From: Bacillus sp. FJAT-29790
GTDB lineage: Bacteria; Bacillota; Bacilli; Bacillales; Cytobacillaceae
Length of the DNA: 64,000 nucleotides
Reading direction: 5' to 3'
NCBI RefSeq assembly: GCF_019039215.1
Contig: NZ_JAHNZZ010000002.1
Span: 125,869 to 189,868, forward strand
Shown: in pieces, positions 55,111 through 64,000 of the stretch
Numbering within the stretch: the stretch's first letter is position 1
Layout of the letters: every line of letters starts with the position of its first letter
Program-made: the position numbers and the translations under genes
Notes under the pieces: model-generated
What the model was told of the DNA's origin: nothing
Database searches by the model: none
Seen by the model: the letters and a program-made list of their open reading frames with translations, nothing else

Positions 55111-55266
55111 AATGTTAAAGCGGCCCATTCATTTCCTTTTAGTGAGTGTGACGGTGGAGTAGGATTTTTATTAGGCAACCGCTGTTTAAGAAATTGGAGG
55201 TAAAAAATGCTGCACATTCTTAAATAGTCTAATACTGCTATCATTTACTTAGATTACTTATATAAA

Positions 55267-55484
55267 GGCTGTTTTCTAAAAGATTGTTGCTTTTATCACC
55301 ATTGAAAACGGTGAGTGGATTGGAGCGGAAGGCACTTGACTCCTGCGGGAGATAGAGGAAAAGTCTAGACCCCATAGACGGAACGTCGAGGAGGCTCGAC
55401 TTCCTCCCCGCGGAAAGCAAGTGCCTGCAGCGGAAAGGAATGGGTATTGTTTATTCGATAACAACAAACTTAACGAAAACAGCC
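55267..55484 (+). repeat. MITE-like element R1, copy d
   Basis: Ends GGCTGTTTTC and GAAAACAGCC, 218 bp. The core is diverged from copies a and c but keeps GGAGCGGAAGGCACTTGACT and CCGCGGAAAGCAAGTG. Flanked by TATATAAA on both sides (55259-55266 and 55485-55492), a perfect 8-bp duplication. Confidence 0.85.
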
Positions 55485-55542
55485 TATATAAAAGTAAAGT
55501 CCATTCACAGAAAAAAAAGTTTATATCCGCCGAAAAAGAATA

Positions 55543-55571
55543 TTGACAATTCCTTAAATTTTTTTTATTCT
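55543..55571 (+). promoter_or_regulatory. Promoter of the ribose-type operon
   Basis: TTGACA (55543-55548), 17-bp spacer, TATTCT (55566-55571). The first operator begins 4 bp after the -10. Confidence 0.78.
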
Positions 55572-55574
55572 ATA

Positions 55575-55713
55575 TGTAACCGGTTACACATCATGAAAAA
55601 ATAAAAATAAATACATTTTTTGATATAATTTTACTTTTATTGATCAATATGTAACCGATTACAGATATTAAATACAGGATGGCTAAAATCTCCCAATTAT
55701 GTAACCGGTTACA
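55575..55713. promoter_or_regulatory. Three LacI-type operators
   Basis: TGTAACCGGTTACA at 55575-55588 and 55700-55713, and TGTAACCGATTACA at 55650-55663. The central CG and near-perfect dyad are typical of LacI-family sites. Spacing of 75 and 50 bp allows looping by a tetramer. They precede the LacI-type gene, so autoregulation of the operon is likely. Confidence 0.85.
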
Positions 55714-55733
55714 TGTAGGTAGGTGATTAAATT

Positions 55734-56747
55734 GTGAATGTCACAATAAAAGATGTAGCAAAGCTAGCTGGTGTTTCGGTTGCTACTGTTTCAAGAGTTA
55801 TTAATAACAAAGGATATGTAAGTGCAGAAACAGTCCATAAGGTAAAAGATGTAATGAAACGATTAAAATATGAACCAAATCAAGTGGCAAGGGGGTTAAC
55901 TGCAAAGAAAACCAAAACAATTGCCTTAATCGTTCCTGATATTTTAAATCCCTTCTTCCCAGTTTTAGCTAGGGGCGTAGAGGACGTTGCTACACTCCAT
56001 GGATTCACACTAATATTATGTAATTCTGATGAATCTGGCATTAAAGAGAAATCATATATCGATGTACTTAGGAAAAAATATGTAGATGGCATCATATTCG
56101 CTTCCAATAATCTTAGTTTAGAAGATATCGAAGGGCTGGAAAAAGCTAATATCCCTTTAGTTGTTTTAGATAGGGCGCCTAATATGGAGACAAATTGTGT
56201 CATACGTGTTGATAATTACAGCGGAGCCATTCAAGCTGTACAGCATTTAATAGATGTAGGGTGCAAAAAAATTGCCCACATATATGGCCCTCTAGAATAC
56301 AATACTGCGCGTGAAAGGTTAGCTGGATATGAAGATATTGTGAAAAATTCACCCTGGTTTACACCTACTTTGATGGTGCCTGGTGATTTTACAATAGATG
56401 GAGGAAAGAAAGCAACGGAAGAGCTTCTTCGGAATCATCCGGATATAGATGGGATTTTTTCAGGTAATGACATGATGGCAGTTGGTGTGTTGAAACAATT
56501 ACACAGTAAAAACATTCAAGTCCCTGACCAAATTGCAGTGTGTGGCTTTGATGGGATAAATCTTACCGAAATTACACAGCCGGAACTCACAACTGTCGTT
56601 CAACCCATCTACCAGGCAGGCAAGCTAGCCGCAGAAAAGTTAATTACCAGAATAAATAAACAATTAATAGAAAATGAGATTATTAATTTAGAAGTTTCCC
56701 TAGTTGTAAGAGATTCAACAAGAAGGAAGGTCGAAGGGGAAAAATGA
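55734..56747 (+). CDS. LacI-family repressor (RbsR-like)
   Basis: 337 residues from GTG 55734. Helix-turn-helix and hinge: TIKDVAKLAGVSVATVSRVI with NNKGYVSAETV, then YEPNQVARGL. The effector domain is ribose-binding-protein-like. It overlaps ribokinase by 4 bp, as rbsR does with rbsK. The likely signal is the operon's pentose or pentoside substrate. Confidence 0.88.
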   Translation: MNVTIKDVAKLAGVSVATVSRVINNKGYVSAETVHKVKDVMKRLKYEPNQVARGLTAKKTKTIALIVPDILNPFFPVLARGVEDVATLHGFTLILCNSDESGIKEKSYIDVLRKKYVDGIIFASNNLSLEDIEGLEKANIPLVVLDRAPNMETNCVIRVDNYSGAIQAVQHLIDVGCKKIAHIYGPLEYNTARERLAGYEDIVKNSPWFTPTLMVPGDFTIDGGKKATEELLRNHPDIDGIFSGNDMMAVGVLKQLHSKNIQVPDQIAVCGFDGINLTEITQPELTTVVQPIYQAGKLAAEKLITRINKQLIENEIINLEVSLVVRDSTRRKVEGEK

Positions 56748-57649
56748 TACCGAAAATTGCGATAATAGGAAGTCTGAATATGGACTTTGTTGTCCAAACA
56801 ACAAGGCATCCAGTTGAAGGTGAGACACTCCTAGGAGAAAAGATAAGCTATTTCCCAGGAGGTAAGGGTGCAAACCAAGCTGTAGGTGCTTCTCGGCTTG
56901 GTGCTGATGTCAAAATGATAGGGAGTGTAGGAAACGATCTCTATGGAAATGAGTTAATTTCATCCCTAAAGTCGGATGGGGTTGATGTATCTTCTATCAA
57001 GGAGGTTGATTCGACCTCCACTGGAACAGCCATTATATTGTTAGCTAAAGGAGAAAATAGCATTATCGTTATTCAAGGTGCTAATGCAGAATGCTCGCCT
57101 AAAGATATTGATCATAACATTGAGATCATCAAGGAATCGGATATTGTCCTTATACAAATGGAAATTCCATTAGAGACAGTTTGCTATGCGGTACAGGTTG
57201 CAAAGCGGTTAAACAAGACCATTATCCTAAACCCTGCACCAGCGCAGCATCTTCCAAGTGAAATACTGAATTGTATTGACTATATTACTCCTAATGAAAC
57301 GGAGCTAGCCATTCTTACAAAAGATAAAGCAGAAAGCGATGATCTAGAAAGCAAAATTGACACTTTGCTACTGGCGGGGGTCAAACATGTAATAACGACA
57401 CTCGGTTCAAACGGAGTTGCTTATAAAGGAAATGGACAAAGTTTACAGAAAATTCAAGGTTACAACGTACCTGTTGTAGATACAACTGGAGCAGGCGATG
57501 CATTCAATGCAGGGTTTGCTTACTCAATCGGTCAGGGAAAATCAATAATCGATTCTATAGTATTTGCCAATAAAACAGCTGCATTAGCGATCGGAAAATC
57601 TGGCGCACAGTCAGGTATGCCTCTTCTAAAGGAAGTCTTGGAATTTTAA
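56744..57649 (+). CDS. rbsK: Ribokinase (PfkB family)
   Basis: 301 residues. PfkB motifs: SLNMDFVVQTTRHPVEGETL, FPGGKGANQAVGASRLG, and the ATP/catalytic segment DTTGAGDAFNAGFAYSI. Phosphorylates ribose or a similar pentose to the 5-phosphate. Translationally coupled to the repressor gene (ATGA). A 102-bp AT-rich gap without terminator leads to the next gene. Confidence 0.88.
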   Translation: MIPKIAIIGSLNMDFVVQTTRHPVEGETLLGEKISYFPGGKGANQAVGASRLGADVKMIGSVGNDLYGNELISSLKSDGVDVSSIKEVDSTSTGTAIILLAKGENSIIVIQGANAECSPKDIDHNIEIIKESDIVLIQMEIPLETVCYAVQVAKRLNKTIILNPAPAQHLPSEILNCIDYITPNETELAILTKDKAESDDLESKIDTLLLAGVKHVITTLGSNGVAYKGNGQSLQKIQGYNVPVVDTTGAGDAFNAGFAYSIGQGKSIIDSIVFANKTAALAIGKSGAQSGMPLLKEVLEF

Positions 57650-57751
57650 TGGTAATAATATTCAGAATCAATAAACTATTAAAATATTAAACCTAAACTA
57701 GCTACAATTTTTTTAAAATATATATTAATAAATTTATAGGAGTGTTTATAA

Positions 57752-58486
57752 ATGAAGGTACTTTTTGTTGGAGAATCTTGGGTTGTTCATATGGTTCACG
57801 TGAAGGGGTATGACAGTTTTACTTCAACCAAATATGAAGAGGGCGCTACACATTTACTTACTTGTTTAAGAAACGCGGAGATCGAAGTAGATTATATGCC
57901 TGCTCATGAGGTTCAAGTTCGTTTCCCTAAAAAATTGGAAGAACTTCAGCAATACGATGCAATTGTTCTAAGTGATATCGGTGCCAATACGTTCTTATTA
58001 CAAAATTCGACGTTCTACCAAATGGAAATAATTCCAAACGCTTTAGAATTATTCAAGGAGTATGTTGAAAAGGGCGGCGGCTTATTAATGATTGGCGGCT
58101 ATCTATCCTTCATGGGTATTGAAGCAAAAGCTAATTATAAAAATACGGTACTTGCGGATGTTCTTCCTATTGAAATGTTAGACACAGATGACCGTGTAGA
58201 AATGCCACAAGGAATTAAACCAGAAACTGTAAAGAGTCATGCTATTACTGAAGGAATGGAAAACTGGCCAAACTTCCTCGGTTATAACAAATTTAAACCG
58301 AAGGATGGTTCAGAGGTTCTAGTTAACATACAAGAAGATCCGCTTCTTGTGATAGGCCAATATGGTGAAGGAAAAACAGCATGCTTTGCAAGTGATTGCG
58401 CGCCACATTGGGGACCAAAAGAGTTTATGGACTGGGAGCATTACCAGCCATTGTGGGTTCGGATTTTAGAACACATCAAAAAATAA
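57752..58486 (+). CDS. GATase1-like protein (PF07090-type)
   Basis: 244 residues, soluble. The class I glutamine-amidotransferase-like fold fits: MKVLFVGESW start, YDAIVLSDIGAN, GGGLLMIGGYLSFMG, GYNKFKPKDGSEVL and FASDCAPHWGP. The position of the nucleophilic Cys (elbow GGYLS) holds no Cys, so it is not a normal glutaminase. The family is often found with sugar or nucleoside catabolism genes; its reaction is unknown. TAGGAGTG precedes ATG 57752. Confidence 0.75.
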   Translation: MKVLFVGESWVVHMVHVKGYDSFTSTKYEEGATHLLTCLRNAEIEVDYMPAHEVQVRFPKKLEELQQYDAIVLSDIGANTFLLQNSTFYQMEIIPNALELFKEYVEKGGGLLMIGGYLSFMGIEAKANYKNTVLADVLPIEMLDTDDRVEMPQGIKPETVKSHAITEGMENWPNFLGYNKFKPKDGSEVLVNIQEDPLLVIGQYGEGKTACFASDCAPHWGPKEFMDWEHYQPLWVRILEHIKK

Positions 58487-58508
58487 TAGTAGCGGGTTGG
58501 TGATCAAA

Positions 58509-59795
58509 ATGCGAATAGATGAAATCGTTCAGGCAAATAAAGACGAATATATTGATTTCTTGTCGCGATTAGTCCAAACAGATACTCAAGTCATCGGGCA
58601 CGGAGTGCTAGGTGGAAAAGAGAAAGCTGGGCAAGAAATCATCAAGCATAAACTATTGAACCTTGGCTTTGAGATTGATGAATTTTTGGTGGATGATGAA
58701 AAAATCAAAAAATACCCCGGTGCCAATTTAGGTCATGAAAATCGCGACCGACCTAATATTGTAGGAACTTTAAAGGGAGCTGGCGGCGGAAAATCTTTAA
58801 TCCTAAATGGTCATATCGACACAATGCCATTTGGTGATCGGGAAAAGTGGTCAGAAGACCCTTTTCTTGGACAAGTTCAAGGAGATGTCCTTTACGGGCT
58901 TGGTTCTACCGATATGAAAGCTTCTTTAGCCGCAATGATTTTAGCAGCACAAGTCATCAAAACCTCAGGGTATAGATTAAAAGGTGATTTAATCATCCAA
59001 TCTGTCGTAGATGAAGAAGGTGGAGGAAATGGAACTCTTGCGTGTGTAGAACGTGGGTATACAGCTGATGCAGCTATTGTGGGAGAACCTACCCAATTAC
59101 ATTTACAGCCTGCACATATGGGGTTTTTATTTCATGAAATTATTGTTGATGGGCACAGCCTCCATTCTAGCCAGCTTTGGGAAGGTGTCAATGCCATTGA
59201 TAAAGCGATTAAAATCTATCAGTCTCTAAAGGATTTGGAGCATAGATGGCTGATGACAGAAAAACACCCGCTTTTACCTGGCCCTACTATAAATTTGGGA
59301 GTGATTGAAGGAGGGATTGCTGGTTCAGTTGTACCAGGATCGTGCACGTTAAAAACATGCCTTCATTACCAGCCTAAGCAAAATGAATCATATGAACAAA
59401 CGAGAGAGCGTGTGAACCAACAAGTTTTAGAGGCCATTGAAAGCGTTGTCAAGGGGGATGAATGGTTAAAGGAACATCCTCCTCTCGTAAATGTCTTTCA
59501 GGAAGGCTATCCTTTTGAGACACCAATTTCTCATCCGCTCGTCCAAGAGATGAAGACTATTATAGGGGACGTACTTCAGGAAGAGGCTGTAATTGAAGGA
59601 ATGCCGGCAGGATGTGATGCTCGTATCCTTTCAGGATTCGGCAACATACCTACAATTATTGTTGGATGCGGTGATCCAAGGCAGTGTCATTGCATTGATG
59701 AATCAGTTCCAGTTTCTCAGTTCTTAAAGTTGATTGAAATTTATGTGAACTTCATTATTTCTTGGTGTGAAGTGGAGTCTGTAGATAATAAATAA
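58509..59795 (+). CDS. M20-family metallohydrolase (ArgE/DapE-like)
   Basis: 428 residues from ATG 58509, after GGTGATC. Metal and catalytic motifs: NGHIDTMPFG, GLGSTDMKAS, VVDEEGGGNG and VGEPTQ, with a late His in GDPRQCHC. Likely removes an N-acyl or peptide-like group. Its place between the GATase-like gene and the importer suggests that the imported compound carries an amide to be cut. Confidence 0.85.
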   Translation: MRIDEIVQANKDEYIDFLSRLVQTDTQVIGHGVLGGKEKAGQEIIKHKLLNLGFEIDEFLVDDEKIKKYPGANLGHENRDRPNIVGTLKGAGGGKSLILNGHIDTMPFGDREKWSEDPFLGQVQGDVLYGLGSTDMKASLAAMILAAQVIKTSGYRLKGDLIIQSVVDEEGGGNGTLACVERGYTADAAIVGEPTQLHLQPAHMGFLFHEIIVDGHSLHSSQLWEGVNAIDKAIKIYQSLKDLEHRWLMTEKHPLLPGPTINLGVIEGGIAGSVVPGSCTLKTCLHYQPKQNESYEQTRERVNQQVLEAIESVVKGDEWLKEHPPLVNVFQEGYPFETPISHPLVQEMKTIIGDVLQEEAVIEGMPAGCDARILSGFGNIPTIIVGCGDPRQCHCIDESVPVSQFLKLIEIYVNFIISWCEVESVDNK

Positions 59796-59891
59796 TGGCT
59801 GTACTAAGTATCCCTACTCCTCTGTGGATATAGCATTGGATACGCTTCAGTGTATAGCCGGCGACTTAACATAACGCAAGCATTTTTTAAT

Positions 59892-59960
59892 AAAGGCGCT
59901 TTTCTTAAACTTTGTTGCTTTTGAATAAAAAAACTATGTTCTAAGACTATCTTTTTATTC
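59892..59960 (+). repeat. Partial R1-type element
   Basis: GGCGCTTTTCTTAAAC then TTTGTTGCTTTT, and CTATGTTCTAAGAC, aligned with the left 70 bp of the element at 21028; no right end and no target duplication. Confidence 0.5.
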
Positions 59961-60009
59961 ATTAAATAAAAAATTTAACAAACCCTAAAAAACATTGGAG
60001 GAGAAATTT

Positions 60010-60960
60010 ATGAAAAAAGTACTTTTACTGATCATTGCAGCAATGGTTGCCATATTGTCAGCTTGTGGATCGTCTGAAGGGAAAAATGCAGGATCTGACA
60101 AGAAGGACGATGGAAAGTTAACGATTGGGGTTACGACAGCTACGCTTCGTCACCAATTCTTTATTGATATTGACAATGGGATGAAAAAAGCAGCAGAAGA
60201 AGCAGGAGTAGAATTATTAGTAAATGACCCGAACCTAGATTTAGCGAAACAAGTGTCTTCGATTGAAGATTATATGCAAAAGGGAGTAGATGCTTTAGTC
60301 GTTCTAGCTGTAGATAATGCAGGTGTTGTTCCTGTAATTGAAGAGGCGAAGGATAAAGGGATTCCCATTATTACTGCAGACTCAGTTGTGGAAAGTGAAA
60401 GTGTAGACACTTTCATTGGAACAGAAAACTATGATGCTGGAAAGCAGTTAGGCGAGTATTTAAAGAAGGATATTGAAGCAAAAGGAAAAGACGTACAAGT
60501 CGCTGTTGTCACTCATGAACAATCTTTCGTACAAAAACAAAGATTAGAAGGATTGAAAGAAGTGCTCAAAGATATGAAAAACGTAAAGATATTGAACAGC
60601 CAGCCAGGTTATGACCGTCAAAAATCGATGGCTACAGTTGAAAATATTCTTCAAGCTAACCCGAATGTCGACTATATTTATGCTACTGCGGAGAACAGTG
60701 TATTAGGTGCATTAGCTGCTCTTGAATCAGCAAATAACAAGCATACAAAAATTGTTGGATTTGATGTGACAGAAGAGGCAGCTGAAGGAATCCGTGAAGA
60801 TTATATTCTTGCAATGATCCAACAACAACCTTCTAAAATCGGTGAAGAATCTATTAAAGCAGCTCTTGAAGCAATCAAAGGCACGAAATTAGATAAAAAC
60901 ATTACTGTTCCAGTTATTCTAGTTGATAAAGAAAATGTTGATGAACATTTCAAAAAATAA
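60010..60960 (+). CDS. rbsB: Ribose-type ABC transporter, substrate-binding lipoprotein
   Basis: 316 residues from ATG 60010 (GGAGGAG upstream). Lipobox LSAC with Cys19. Type I periplasmic-binding fold of the RbsB group (TTATLRHQFFIDIDNGMKKA; YMQKGVDALVVLAVD; GFDVTEEAAEGI). The true ligand may be ribose or a riboside. A hairpin after the stop separates it from the ATPase gene. Confidence 0.87.
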   Translation: MKKVLLLIIAAMVAILSACGSSEGKNAGSDKKDDGKLTIGVTTATLRHQFFIDIDNGMKKAAEEAGVELLVNDPNLDLAKQVSSIEDYMQKGVDALVVLAVDNAGVVPVIEEAKDKGIPIITADSVVESESVDTFIGTENYDAGKQLGEYLKKDIEAKGKDVQVAVVTHEQSFVQKQRLEGLKEVLKDMKNVKILNSQPGYDRQKSMATVENILQANPNVDYIYATAENSVLGALAALESANNKHTKIVGFDVTEEAAEGIREDYILAMIQQQPSKIGEESIKAALEAIKGTKLDKNITVPVILVDKENVDEHFKK

Positions 60961-60986
60961 TCAGGGAGATCTTTCTCCCTGATTTT
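60959..60986 (+). terminator. Intercistronic hairpin after the binding-protein gene
   Basis: AATCAGGGAGA (60959-60969) pairs perfectly with 60974-60984, then TT. Probably partial termination or 3' protection that keeps binding protein in excess, as with livJ. Confidence 0.75.
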
Positions 60987-61012
60987 AACTCCAAACGAGA
61001 GGGGAGTTATTA

Positions 61013-62515
61013 TTGAACTCACCAATAATTGAGTTGAAAAATATTACAAAAGAGTTTTCTGGTGTTAAAGCGCTGAAGGGTGTATCGCTAACCGTTCATC
61101 CAGGTAGTGTTCATGCACTTGTAGGTGAAAATGGCGCAGGAAAGTCTACCTTAATGAAAATATTAACAGGTGCTTACTCAAAAACGAGTGGAGAAATTTA
61201 TTATAATGGTGACATCATTGAGAATATGGATCCGAAAGCATCAAAGAAAATTGGGATTCATTGTATCTATCAAGAATTAAATGTTGCAAATTACCTAACA
61301 GTTGCAGAAAACGTTTTTCTCGGCAGTCAGCCTGTAAACAGCATGGGGCTAATTGATTGGAAAAAAATGAATGAAAAGGCAAGAGGAATTTTCACATCGT
61401 TGCAAATTAATCTTGATCCTAAACATTTGGCAAAAGATATTAGTATCGCCCAAAAACAAATGATAGAAATTGCCCGTGCTATTTCTCAAGAAGCAAAAAT
61501 ATTAATAATGGATGAACCAACTTCTTCCTTATCTGAAAGAGAAACAGAGATTTTACTTTCTTTAGTGACAGAACTAAAGAACAAGGGTGTCAGCATTCTA
61601 TATATATCTCATAGAATGGATGAGATTTTCAAGGTGTGTGATACTGTAACCGTTTTACGAGATGGCACGCATATTAAAACATTGTCAATGAGTGAAATCG
61701 AGAATGTTGATACACTTGTAGAATTAATGGTTAACCGTAAGATGGATGATTATTTTAATAAGGTTGAAGTTCCTATTGGTGCACCTATATTAAAAGTAGA
61801 AAACCTTTCTAAATCCGGGGTACTTAAAGATATTAATTTTGAGTTACGGCGTGGGGAAATTCTAGGGATTGCTGGACTGGTAGGATCAGGTAGGACAGAA
61901 ATTGCCCAGGCACTATTCGGATTGTTAAAAAAAGATTCGGGTGAAGTTCTGATAGACAATGAGTTAACAACTATTAAAAATCCTAGTGACGCTATTAAGC
62001 TAGGTATCGGTTTCGTTACAGAAAACCGCAAAGAAACAGGGCTTGTACTTAAGCAGACAGTAAGAGATAACATATCTCTCCCAAATCTTAAAAAGTATAC
62101 TAAAAGCCTTATTGTTAATAAAAAGGCAGAAAAAATAGAATCGGAAGACTATAAGAAGAAACTAAATATTAAGGCTAGATCAATAGAACAGACGATTTCT
62201 ACTTTAAGTGGCGGAAATCAACAAAAAGCAATTATTTCCCGCTGGATGATTCAAGAACCGCGTATCCTTATCTTGGATGAGCCATGCCGTGGGGTAGATG
62301 TAGGAGCAAAAGCCGAAATCTTTGCGCAAATTAGCAAACTTGCTGAGCAAGGAGTTGGGATTATTATGATATCTTCTGAACTATCAGAGATCGTTGGGAT
62401 GAGTGATCGTACAATAGTAATGAGAGAAGGCGCTATTGCGGGTGAGCTTAAAAAAGACATGATAACCTCTGATAATATTTTGAAATTAGCTTTTGGAGGT
62501 GGAATAGGTGCTTAA
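61013..62515 (+). CDS. rbsA: Ribose-type ABC transporter ATPase (two domains)
   Basis: 500 residues. Two ABC domains: Walker A GENGAGKST near 37 with Walker B ILIMDEPTSSL, and a second domain with altered P-loop GLVGSGRTE, signature LSGGNQQKAIISRWM and ILDEPCRGVDVGAKAE. The degenerate second P-loop is normal for RbsA/MglA. TTG 61013 follows GAGGGGAG. Overlaps rbsC by 8 bp. Confidence 0.92.
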   Translation: MNSPIIELKNITKEFSGVKALKGVSLTVHPGSVHALVGENGAGKSTLMKILTGAYSKTSGEIYYNGDIIENMDPKASKKIGIHCIYQELNVANYLTVAENVFLGSQPVNSMGLIDWKKMNEKARGIFTSLQINLDPKHLAKDISIAQKQMIEIARAISQEAKILIMDEPTSSLSERETEILLSLVTELKNKGVSILYISHRMDEIFKVCDTVTVLRDGTHIKTLSMSEIENVDTLVELMVNRKMDDYFNKVEVPIGAPILKVENLSKSGVLKDINFELRRGEILGIAGLVGSGRTEIAQALFGLLKKDSGEVLIDNELTTIKNPSDAIKLGIGFVTENRKETGLVLKQTVRDNISLPNLKKYTKSLIVNKKAEKIESEDYKKKLNIKARSIEQTISTLSGGNQQKAIISRWMIQEPRILILDEPCRGVDVGAKAEIFAQISKLAEQGVGIIMISSELSEIVGMSDRTIVMREGAIAGELKKDMITSDNILKLAFGGGIGA

Positions 62516-63506
62516 GAGTACTTCATCAAATGTGAACCTTAATGAAAATAACCAAATGACAAACTGGAAAAAAACACTTTTTGTCATTTTCGATAAAGGA
62601 AGTACAACAATAGGACTTGCTCTTCTCTTTATTATAATGTCCATTGTTACAACAGATTTTTTAACAGTTGACAACTTAATCAACGTTATGCGCCAATCTG
62701 CTGTGCTATGTATTATGGCTGTAGCCATGACCTTCATAATAATTACGGGAGGAATCGATTTAAGTGCAGGGTCCCAGCTGGCAGTCAGCGGTGTGGTAGT
62801 GAGCGGACTGATCGTTGCAGGTGTACCTATTCCCCTTGCAATTCTCATTACTGTAATGGTGGGTGCGATGATTGGCTTATTTATGGGAACGGTTATTTCT
62901 ACACAAAATATCCCTCCGTTTATTGTAACTTTAGCTATGACCACCATTCTAAGTGGTATCGCTTTCGTGTATACAGCAGGTACGCCAATTGTTATTACTG
63001 ATGCTGCTTTCCGTCAAATTGGCCGAGGGTATATCGGTCCGATTCCTACGGCAATTGTCATCATGGTTCTAGTTGCAATCATTGGCTATGTTTTATTATC
63101 GCACACCCGTTTTGGAAGATATGTTTATACAATAGGTGATAATGAAGAGGCTGCTAGATTATGCGGAATAAATGTAAAACGAGTTAAAACGGGCGTATAT
63201 GCATTTGGTGGTGCAATTATGGCGATTGCAGGAATTGTACTTGCCTCTCGTCTTTCTTCAGGCTCACCGAATGCAGGAACAGGTTCTGAATTAGATGCAA
63301 TTGCAGCTGTTGTTTTAGGAGGGACAAACCTTTTTGGCGGTGAAGGGAAAATTTCTGGAACGTTAATGGGTGTGGCGATTATCTCCATTCTGAATAACGG
63401 ATTAAATTTATTAGATGTTTCTTCTTATAATCAATTAATGATTAAAGGTGTCGTTATTCTTTTAGCGGTGTGGTTAAATTCAATGAAAGCAAGAAGAAAG
63501 GCTTAG
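62508..63506 (+). CDS. rbsC: Ribose-type ABC transporter permease
   Basis: 332 residues, eight to ten TM helices; RbsC signatures AMTFIIITGGIDLSAGSQLA, GDNEEAARLCGINVKRVK and SGSPNAGTGSELDAIAAVVLGGTNLFGG. GTG 62508 lies inside the rbsA end, after GGAGGTGG. Nine bases separate it from the BtpA-like gene. Confidence 0.92.
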   Translation: MLKSTSSNVNLNENNQMTNWKKTLFVIFDKGSTTIGLALLFIIMSIVTTDFLTVDNLINVMRQSAVLCIMAVAMTFIIITGGIDLSAGSQLAVSGVVVSGLIVAGVPIPLAILITVMVGAMIGLFMGTVISTQNIPPFIVTLAMTTILSGIAFVYTAGTPIVITDAAFRQIGRGYIGPIPTAIVIMVLVAIIGYVLLSHTRFGRYVYTIGDNEEAARLCGINVKRVKTGVYAFGGAIMAIAGIVLASRLSSGSPNAGTGSELDAIAAVVLGGTNLFGGEGKISGTLMGVAIISILNNGLNLLDVSSYNQLMIKGVVILLAVWLNSMKARRKA

Positions 63507-63515
63507 GTGAAAAAA

Positions 63516-64000
63516 ATGAGCGGTGGAATATTTCCAGAAAAGAAACTTGTATTAGAAAATATATTTAATGTAAGCAAACCAATCATTGGTATGGTTCATT
63601 TAAAACCACTTCCAGGAGCTCCACATTATAAAGGTGAAAGCATTGATGAGATGATTGAATTTGCCTTGGAGGATGTTCGTCGATTGGAAGAAGGAGGGGT
63701 AGATGGGCTGCAAATAGAAAATGCATGGGATATCCCCTTCCCGAAGCCTGAAAATTTTAGTTTTGAAACAGTAGCAGCCATGACAGCAGTAGGAGTTGAA
63801 ATTGCAAAAGCTTCAAAGCTGCCGCTTGGTGTAAATTGTTTGGCTAATGCCGTTATTCCAGCTATTGCGATTGCGAAAGCATGTAAAGCTAAGTGGGTAA
63901 GATCTAATCAATGGGTAAATGCGTATGTTGCGAATGAAGGGATCGTAGAGGGTGCCTCAGCAACGGCAATGAGATATAAGGCTAGTCTTTTCGGTGATGA
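63516..64000 (+). CDS. BtpA/SgcQ-family protein (partial, runs off the window)
   Basis: Start ATG 63516 after TAGGTGA; 161 codons are visible with no stop. The translation IIGMVHLKPLPGAPHYKG, VRRLEEGGVDGLQIENAWDI, and LGVNCLANAVIPAIAIAKA is the PF03437 (BtpA) TIM-barrel pattern, as in E. coli SgcQ. Family reaction is not settled. It is the last visible gene of the operon, and more genes may follow. Confidence 0.85.
   Translation, partial: MSGGIFPEKKLVLENIFNVSKPIIGMVHLKPLPGAPHYKGESIDEMIEFALEDVRRLEEGGVDGLQIENAWDIPFPKPENFSFETVAAMTAVGVEIAKASKLPLGVNCLANAVIPAIAIAKACKAKWVRSNQWVNAYVANEGIVEGASATAMRYKASLFGD

Follow-up and report, generated by a model that had tools for sequence, protein, structure and literature searches.

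What might Bacillus sp. FJAT-29790 take up and degrade with the probably LacI-controlled operon that runs off the end of the stretch analysed here (the window: 64,000 nucleotides of assembly GCF_019039215.1, contig NZ_JAHNZZ010000002.1, positions 125,869-189,868 of the forward strand)? From position 55734 up to the window end, eight genes, all on the plus strand, encode a LacI-family regulator, a ribokinase, a GATase1-like protein of family PF07090, an M20 hydrolase, an RbsB/A/C-type importer and a BtpA-family protein (Table 1); profile searches recovered every member of this list, which an initial annotation had read from the DNA letters. We propose, at a probability of roughly 0.45, that the genes form an uptake and catabolic operon for a compound in which a ribose unit is attached to a C-N-linked group, such as an amide or a ureide. 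The observations at hand are the gene content, the gene order, the operators, the protein families, the catalytic motifs of the hydrolases and kinases, and a binding pocket unlike that of RbsB. The window holds a large, operator-defined form of a cassette whose small form occurs in Salmonella and E. coli, and PF07090 and BtpA/SgcQ are widespread families.

Conservation and make-up of the cassette

Is the cluster a unit? The initial annotation held that it is one, and named scattering of the genes in related genomes as the outcome that would speak against it. Following the contig past 64 kb, as the annotation had advised, completes the BtpA gene and brings in three more genes, for another PfkB kinase (the second kinase), another M20 hydrolase (M20b, the first being M20a) and a short-chain dehydrogenase/reductase (SDR). 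When the PF07090 protein was searched against genome contigs, 45 loci were obtained (handles beginning with L; genome handles begin with G). The ten-gene order from LacI to M20b is identical in five genomes of Bacillus, Neobacillus and Brevibacillus besides the window (L003, L005, L006, L007 and L045), and L004 ends with its contig after RbsC; the SDR follows the ten-gene set in L003 and L045 as well. In L045 the PF07090 protein, M20a, the importer and BtpA are 87-94% identical to those of the window, and the LacI protein and first kinase are distant homologues, the regulator being a different LacI with 32% identity.

The three LacI-type operators of the initial annotation also stand: TGTAACCGRTTACA has exact copies only at 55575, 55650 and 55700, both in the window and in the whole 4.55 Mb genome, and copies with one mismatch lie at five further places in the genome (L067-L071). 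Upstream of the cassette LacI gene at 12 other loci, TGTAANCGNTTACA occurs with zero mismatches in five (L004, L007, L009, L101 and L102), with one in L003 and L005 and with two in L030 and L045, and is absent in L006, L103 and L104. The regulator itself reaches no NCBIfam equivalog cut-off, the best being RbsR-type (283.2 bits; cut-off 382).

Beyond these genomes, smaller or rearranged versions are found in Bacillota, Pseudomonadota and Actinomycetota, where a phosphotriesterase, an M28 protein or a nitrilase stands beside M20 or replaces it. Reshuffled cassettes were read from annotated plasmid records and from a sample across the host order. For example, Rhizobium indicum has the order LacI, binding protein, ATPase, permease, phosphotriesterase, PF07090, BtpA, TenA, ribokinase; Pantoea and Paracoccus have the same parts, and Agrobacterium vitis has an M20-type zinc hydrolase at the place of TenA. 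The genomes G144 and G317 have two kinases, BtpA and a phosphotriesterase. Two PfkB kinases accompany BtpA in the window, L003, L005-L007, L045, L101 and L102, as well as in L058, which has no PF07090 gene annotated in view; BtpA occurs with a single kinase in each of L052, L056, L059 and L060.

Neighbours within 8 kb were counted at 29 non-redundant PF07090 loci and at 20 control regions of the window's genome. An M20 hydrolase is present in 12 of the 29 loci, a phosphotriesterase in 10 and either in 19 (controls: 1, 0 and 1 of 20); counting every listed amide or ester hydrolase raises this to 25 (controls: 5 of 20). Similarly, 18 loci have a PfkB kinase, 16 a part of a ribose-type importer and six BtpA, none of which occurs in any control region. 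Fisher p values against the controls are 1.5e-5 for M20 or phosphotriesterase, 3.0e-6 for the kinase and 2.0e-5 for any hydrolase. In a sample of 348 genomes of the host order, PF07090 matched 48 at E 0.001, 31 of them above the family cut-off; six genomes with more than 300 bits were kept and 42 were dropped, the dropped matches, as listed, being short and partial; almost all of these lie in frames some 920-960 codons long, and one lies in a frame with stops. BtpA matched 106 of the 348 at E 0.001, and the 18 above the cut-off were kept. Three genomes (G000, G144 and G317) have both genes, no more than 7 kb apart in all three (hypergeometric p 0.002).

The genes are not scattered in related genomes: their order is conserved, and the PfkB kinase, the importer and amide or ester hydrolases recur across phyla. 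The view that the cassette is a conserved catabolic unit, and no chance neighbourhood, is well supported. The gene set first drawn was also too narrow, since BtpA and M20 are optional and a hydrolase of any fold and a PfkB kinase are the commoner partners of PF07090.

Thirty of the 45 loci are enterobacterial (L037 is labelled otherwise, as a metagenome-assembled genome). In 25 of these a RikA-type kinase, PF07090, a DMT transporter and a phosphotriesterase lie within 5 kb; four (L011, L014, L017 and L035) have the kinase, a proline-iminopeptidase-type hydrolase and an APC permease, and L031 has neither set and carries a cytidine deaminase. By DNA match, PF07090 is present in 1940 of 5426 complete E. 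coli genomes, about one third. On an E. coli plasmid (L048:5899-12853), two IS26 copies bound a set of PfkB, PF07090, iminopeptidase and APC permease genes, an arrangement suggesting that the small cassette is able to pass from one replicon to another.

The rikA locus of Salmonella (STM3547-STM3550) resembles the window in that a PfkB kinase adjoins the PF07090 protein and genes for a hydrolase and a transporter are close by; it differs in having a phosphotriesterase and a DMT transporter where the window has M20 hydrolases and an ABC importer, and in lacking BtpA and a second kinase. In the relatives examined, the RikA-type kinase is extended at its N-terminus by what we read as a DeoR-type domain. 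A 2026 study reports that the RikA kinase phosphorylates ribose; its authors call the pathway unknown, raise the possibility that the genes around rikA serve the use of some carbon source yet to be identified, and found no studies on STM3548-STM3550 (PMC13432705). In the open-access literature searched, no other work on the cassette was found.

Import, phosphorylation and hydrolysis

Which part of the substrate does the importer recognise? The RbsA-type and RbsC-type models are the best for its ATPase (565.8 bits) and permease (304.7 bits), both under their equivalog cut-offs (745 and 398). In comparison with a true rbs operon (L118), RbsA and RbsC show 51% identity, LacI and the kinase 45%, and RbsB 31%. 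The asparagine, arginine and asparagine that contact ribose in E. coli RbsB (N13, R90 and N190) are conserved in the RbsB of L118. In the cassette binding proteins of Bacillota and Rhizobium, compared by eye, N13 and R90 are changed in 13 of 13 and N190 in 12 of 13. Because these contact positions are changed, the ligand is probably not free ribose. The name ribose-type given to the importer therefore holds for its family but probably not for its binding pocket, and the expectation of one conserved unit with a ligand other than free ribose is retained from the initial annotation, with the gene set widened.

The same comparison bears on the idea of an ordinary ribose operon that has acquired unrelated hydrolases and BtpA. 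The ribokinase cut-off passed by the first kinase and the 51% identity of RbsA and RbsC speak for it. However, the window operon has in addition PF07090, two M20 proteins, BtpA and a second kinase, and lacks the small protein of L118 read as RbsD, for which no PF05025 match was found in the whole genome (a control matched in five of 14 genomes). The absent RbsD and the altered pocket disfavour a plain rbs operon, and the linkage of hydrolases to PF07090 across phyla argues against acquisition of unrelated genes; we consider this explanation very improbable.

The first kinase passes the ribokinase equivalog and scores 85 bits against the fructoselysine 6-kinase model (cut-off 247), whereas the second falls below the ribokinase cut-off (132.9 bits against 299.65). 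Both retain the D-x-TG-x-GDAF motif (DTTGAGDAF in the first). In a tree of 33 rows the first kinase lies within the 24-row half that contains the kinase of the true rbs operon (81/79); most deep forks are poorly supported and long branches meet, and the place of the second kinase is not interpreted.

These scores matter for an Amadori or opine-type substrate, that is, a 1-deoxyketose conjugate of an amino acid or lactam whose sugar the PfkB kinase would phosphorylate and on which BtpA would act as a deglycase, as SIS proteins do elsewhere. On a Ti plasmid (L120:12004-24692), the neighbours of a divergent PF07090 gene (38.8%) are HyuA, HyuB, an SIS protein, an ABC importer and a kinase gene that bears the annotation fructoselysine 6-kinase. 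This arrangement shares with the window a PF07090 gene near a PfkB-type kinase and an ABC importer, and leans towards Amadori conjugates; SIS, PfkB and BtpA genes also stand in a row in L117. Deoxyfructosyl glutamine, an Amadori compound, is reported from tumours of chrysopine-type strains (PMC4231840), a type to which the L120 plasmid may or may not belong. Against such a substrate, a LysR gene of opposite orientation lies between the Ti-plasmid PF07090 gene and the operon there, the plasmid has an SIS protein in place of BtpA, all eleven genes of the operon analysed here, from LacI to SDR, have family assignments other than SIS, and the first kinase scores as a ribokinase and not as a fructoselysine 6-kinase. 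We regard an Amadori substrate as unlikely, though worth keeping in view.

The preferred reading, a ribose conjugate with a C-N-linked group, gives the hydrolysis to the M20 proteins. Motif patterns of the M20 family were found five of five in M20a and four of five in M20b, whose fifth is GHFD by eye. Among the 25 of 48 matches listed for M20a no ArgE or DapE equivalog cut-off was reached, and among the 25 of 42 listed for M20b no equivalog cut-off was reached. Both pass ArgE/DapE subfamily models, M20a TIGR01910 and M20b PRK08588 (311.4 bits against 289) and TIGR01910 (299.4 against 217.6), so both are predicted deacylases of that general type. A housekeeping DapE, which the initial annotation had said would undo its reading if the binding protein also bound only free ribose, is therefore disfavoured, as is ArgE, by the equivalog cut-offs among the matches listed, but the general ArgE/DapE character remains.

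Two orphan families and a candidate pathway

What do the PF07090 and BtpA proteins contribute? Solved relatives of the PF07090 protein in the PDB are 3soz (E 4e-110), which is STM1381, and 2gk3 (E 2e-109), which corresponds to STM3548. In all 29 representatives (pairwise identity below 80%), residues 115-117 are GGY; we equate this segment with the nucleophile elbow of class I amidotransferases. Cys 38, 211 and 216 of the window protein are retained in just 13, 12 and 17 of the 29, and G7, E8, K18, G19, D75, Y117, D147, E150, D215, H219 and W220 are identical in all. The cysteine nucleophile that defines class I glutamine amidotransferases was rightly described at the outset as missing, and the pattern fits an enzyme or binding protein other than an amidotransferase. 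The open-access literature searched gave no enzymatic function for PF07090 or for the BtpA/SgcQ family.

BtpA belongs to the BtpA/SgcQ family by TIGR00259 (232.7 bits; cut-off 153.4) and falls well below the photosystem I biogenesis equivalog NF045918 (186.9 against 400 bits). The window protein falls in a separate subfamily, which is found alongside PF07090. Its sequence matches to the PDB are weak and partial, the best being 5ey5 (LBCATS-a; E 3e-4), and in the comparison of a predicted structure the best fold matches are tied TIM barrels that single out no one function, the fold being close to ThiE and TenI.

This likeness raises the possibility of pyrimidine or thiamin-moiety salvage, in which an M20 deformylase, TenA, a PfkB-type kinase and a ThiE-like barrel would recycle an aminopyrimidine, and TenA-family genes do follow BtpA in L052, L056 and L059 (Pfam-tested in L052). 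The importer and first kinase, however, are of sugar type, and BLAST with the TenA of L052 found none in the Bacillota cassettes, though a diverged TenA could escape it. The chance of such a salvage role appears slim.

For the ribose conjugate we propose the following steps. LacI would repress the operon until the compound or a product is bound. The importer would bring in the conjugate and not free ribose, and the two M20 enzymes would cut its amide or acyl part, as phosphotriesterase-type or other hydrolases would in sister cassettes. Ribose would then be freed and converted by the first kinase to ribose 5-phosphate. Being a frequent neighbour of this kinase, the PF07090 protein most likely acts between hydrolysis and phosphorylation, perhaps at the C1-N bond; this step and the phosphorylation are among the weakest of the scheme. 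Equally weak is the role of the second kinase and BtpA, a phosphate-binding barrel, as an add-on module: the kinase might phosphorylate a second sugar-amine intermediate, which BtpA, by analogy with phosphoribosyl-amine enzymes of the same fold, might isomerise or split. The carbamoylase-family, AllA-like, HyuA, cytidine-deaminase and TenA neighbours in sister cassettes lean towards ribosides of cyclic amides or ureides. In a narrower version, which we hold to be unlikely, an undescribed pathway would use ribosyl ureides or nucleosides that are ring-opened, modified or oxidised: the base remnant would be hydrolysed at its amide bonds, PF07090 would be a new Cys-free enzyme for the ribosyl C1-N bond and BtpA a TrpF-related phosphoribosyl-amine isomerase or lyase. 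If true, this version would assign an enzymatic function to both the PF07090 and the BtpA/SgcQ family.

Several points weigh against the proposal of a ribose conjugate. Its substrate and chemistry are predicted from the genes, and the contact positions used in the pocket comparison are those of E. coli RbsB. All control regions belong to a single genome, five of the 20 also contain a listed hydrolase, and the reference proteins come partly from the same neighbourhoods, which favours the result. Ten of the 29 loci lack both M20 and phosphotriesterase, and four (L031, L051, L121 and L124) lack any listed hydrolase, L031 having the adjacent cytidine deaminase instead. Half of the six PF07090 genomes in the host order have no BtpA, 15 of the 18 BtpA genomes have no full-length PF07090 and many BtpA genes keep different company (L106-L119). 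The predicted structure of BtpA is of no more than fair quality (pLDDT 68.7, five sequences), its best fold matches being tied, and the ribose activity of RikA may be off-target according to the authors who described it (PMC13432705). Finally, no PfkB kinase lies within 8 kb in 11 of the 29 loci (e.g., L016, L044, L103 and L104). Together with the generic deacylase character of the M20 proteins, this last count speaks for one regulator with two separate jobs, the M20 enzymes scavenging peptides or acyl-amino acids and the other genes using an unrelated sugar. Other hydrolase folds replace M20 in otherwise similar cassettes, suggesting a shared step, and we judge a division into two jobs to be quite improbable. 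Since a single operon encodes the binding protein, the regulator, both kinases and both hydrolases, ligand screening could reveal the substrate, and its identification would put the function of the two orphan families to the test at once.

Gene coordinates and side observations

Table 1. Operators and genes of the operon, in window numbering; genes past 64000 are numbered onward along the same contig.
Feature	Position	Strand	Basis
LacI-type operator 1, TGTAACCGGTTACA	55575..55588		exact match
LacI-type operator 2, TGTAACCGATTACA	55650..55663		exact match
LacI-type operator 3, TGTAACCGGTTACA	55700..55713		exact match
LacI-family regulator	55734..56747	+	PF00356, PF00532/PF13377
First PfkB kinase, ribokinase	56744..57649	+	TIGR02152 346.6 bits, cut-off 299.65
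PF07090 GATase1-like protein, relative of Salmonella STM3548 and STM1381 (3SOZ)	57752..58486	+	PF07090 379.3 bits, cut-off 27
M20 hydrolase a (predicted ArgE/DapE-type deacylase)	58497..59795	+	PF01546; TIGR01910 266.8 bits, cut-off 217.6
RbsB-type substrate-binding lipoprotein, ribose pocket altered	59995..60960	+	PF13407
RbsA-type ATPase	61013..62515	+	PF00005 twice; RbsA-type model best
RbsC-type permease	62508..63506	+	PF02653; RbsC-type model best
BtpA/SgcQ-family TIM barrel, 5' part in window	63507..64000 (gene end 64355)	+	TIGR00259 on full protein
Second PfkB kinase	64373-65266, past window		D-x-TG-x-GDAF motif
Second M20 hydrolase (M20b)	65278-66462, past window		PRK08588, TIGR01910
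SDR	66581-67285, past window

BtpA genes occur in other settings. One class of loci resembles E. coli sgc: L112 has a BtpA-family protein, a relative of M42 peptidases and a phosphotransferase system (the last read by eye), and differs from the window in its DeoR and M42 genes and in a BtpA without the motifs of the window's subfamily. In L119 (9231-10660) a BtpA gene overlaps a TrpF-family (PF00697) gene, another TrpF gene being elsewhere in the genome; nearby on the opposite strand are a Bmp-type binding protein, permeases, an isochorismatase-type hydrolase and a PfkB kinase. Five genomes of the host order (L106-L110) have a different BtpA, flanked by an SDR on one side and a nucleoside hydrolase on the other. 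ABC ATPases, an amidohydrolase, a metallo-beta-lactamase-type protein and an Asp/Glu/hydantoin racemase-family protein (Pfam-tested in L109) accompany it. In L117 (4252-9593) a QueT-family protein is encoded a few genes upstream of the SIS, PfkB and BtpA genes.

The enterobacterial locus L035 adjoins genes that we recognise as the tetrathionate reductase operon, and its PF07090 paralogue and kinase (245 and 408 amino acids) are, judged by these lengths, presumably orf245 and orf408. In a Salmonella transposon sequencing report, orf245 and orf408 are among the genes required at pH 3 and fall in a Salmonella pathogenicity island 2 group required for starvation, in macrophages and for systemic infection (PMC8653844).

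Directly upstream of the operators lies an element of about 230 bp (55254-55497) that resembles a miniature inverted-repeat transposable element, with inverted ends of 36 nucleotides that are 83% complementary; counting itself, it has at least 40 longer copies in the genome at 75-100% identity (40 of 383 candidates scored).

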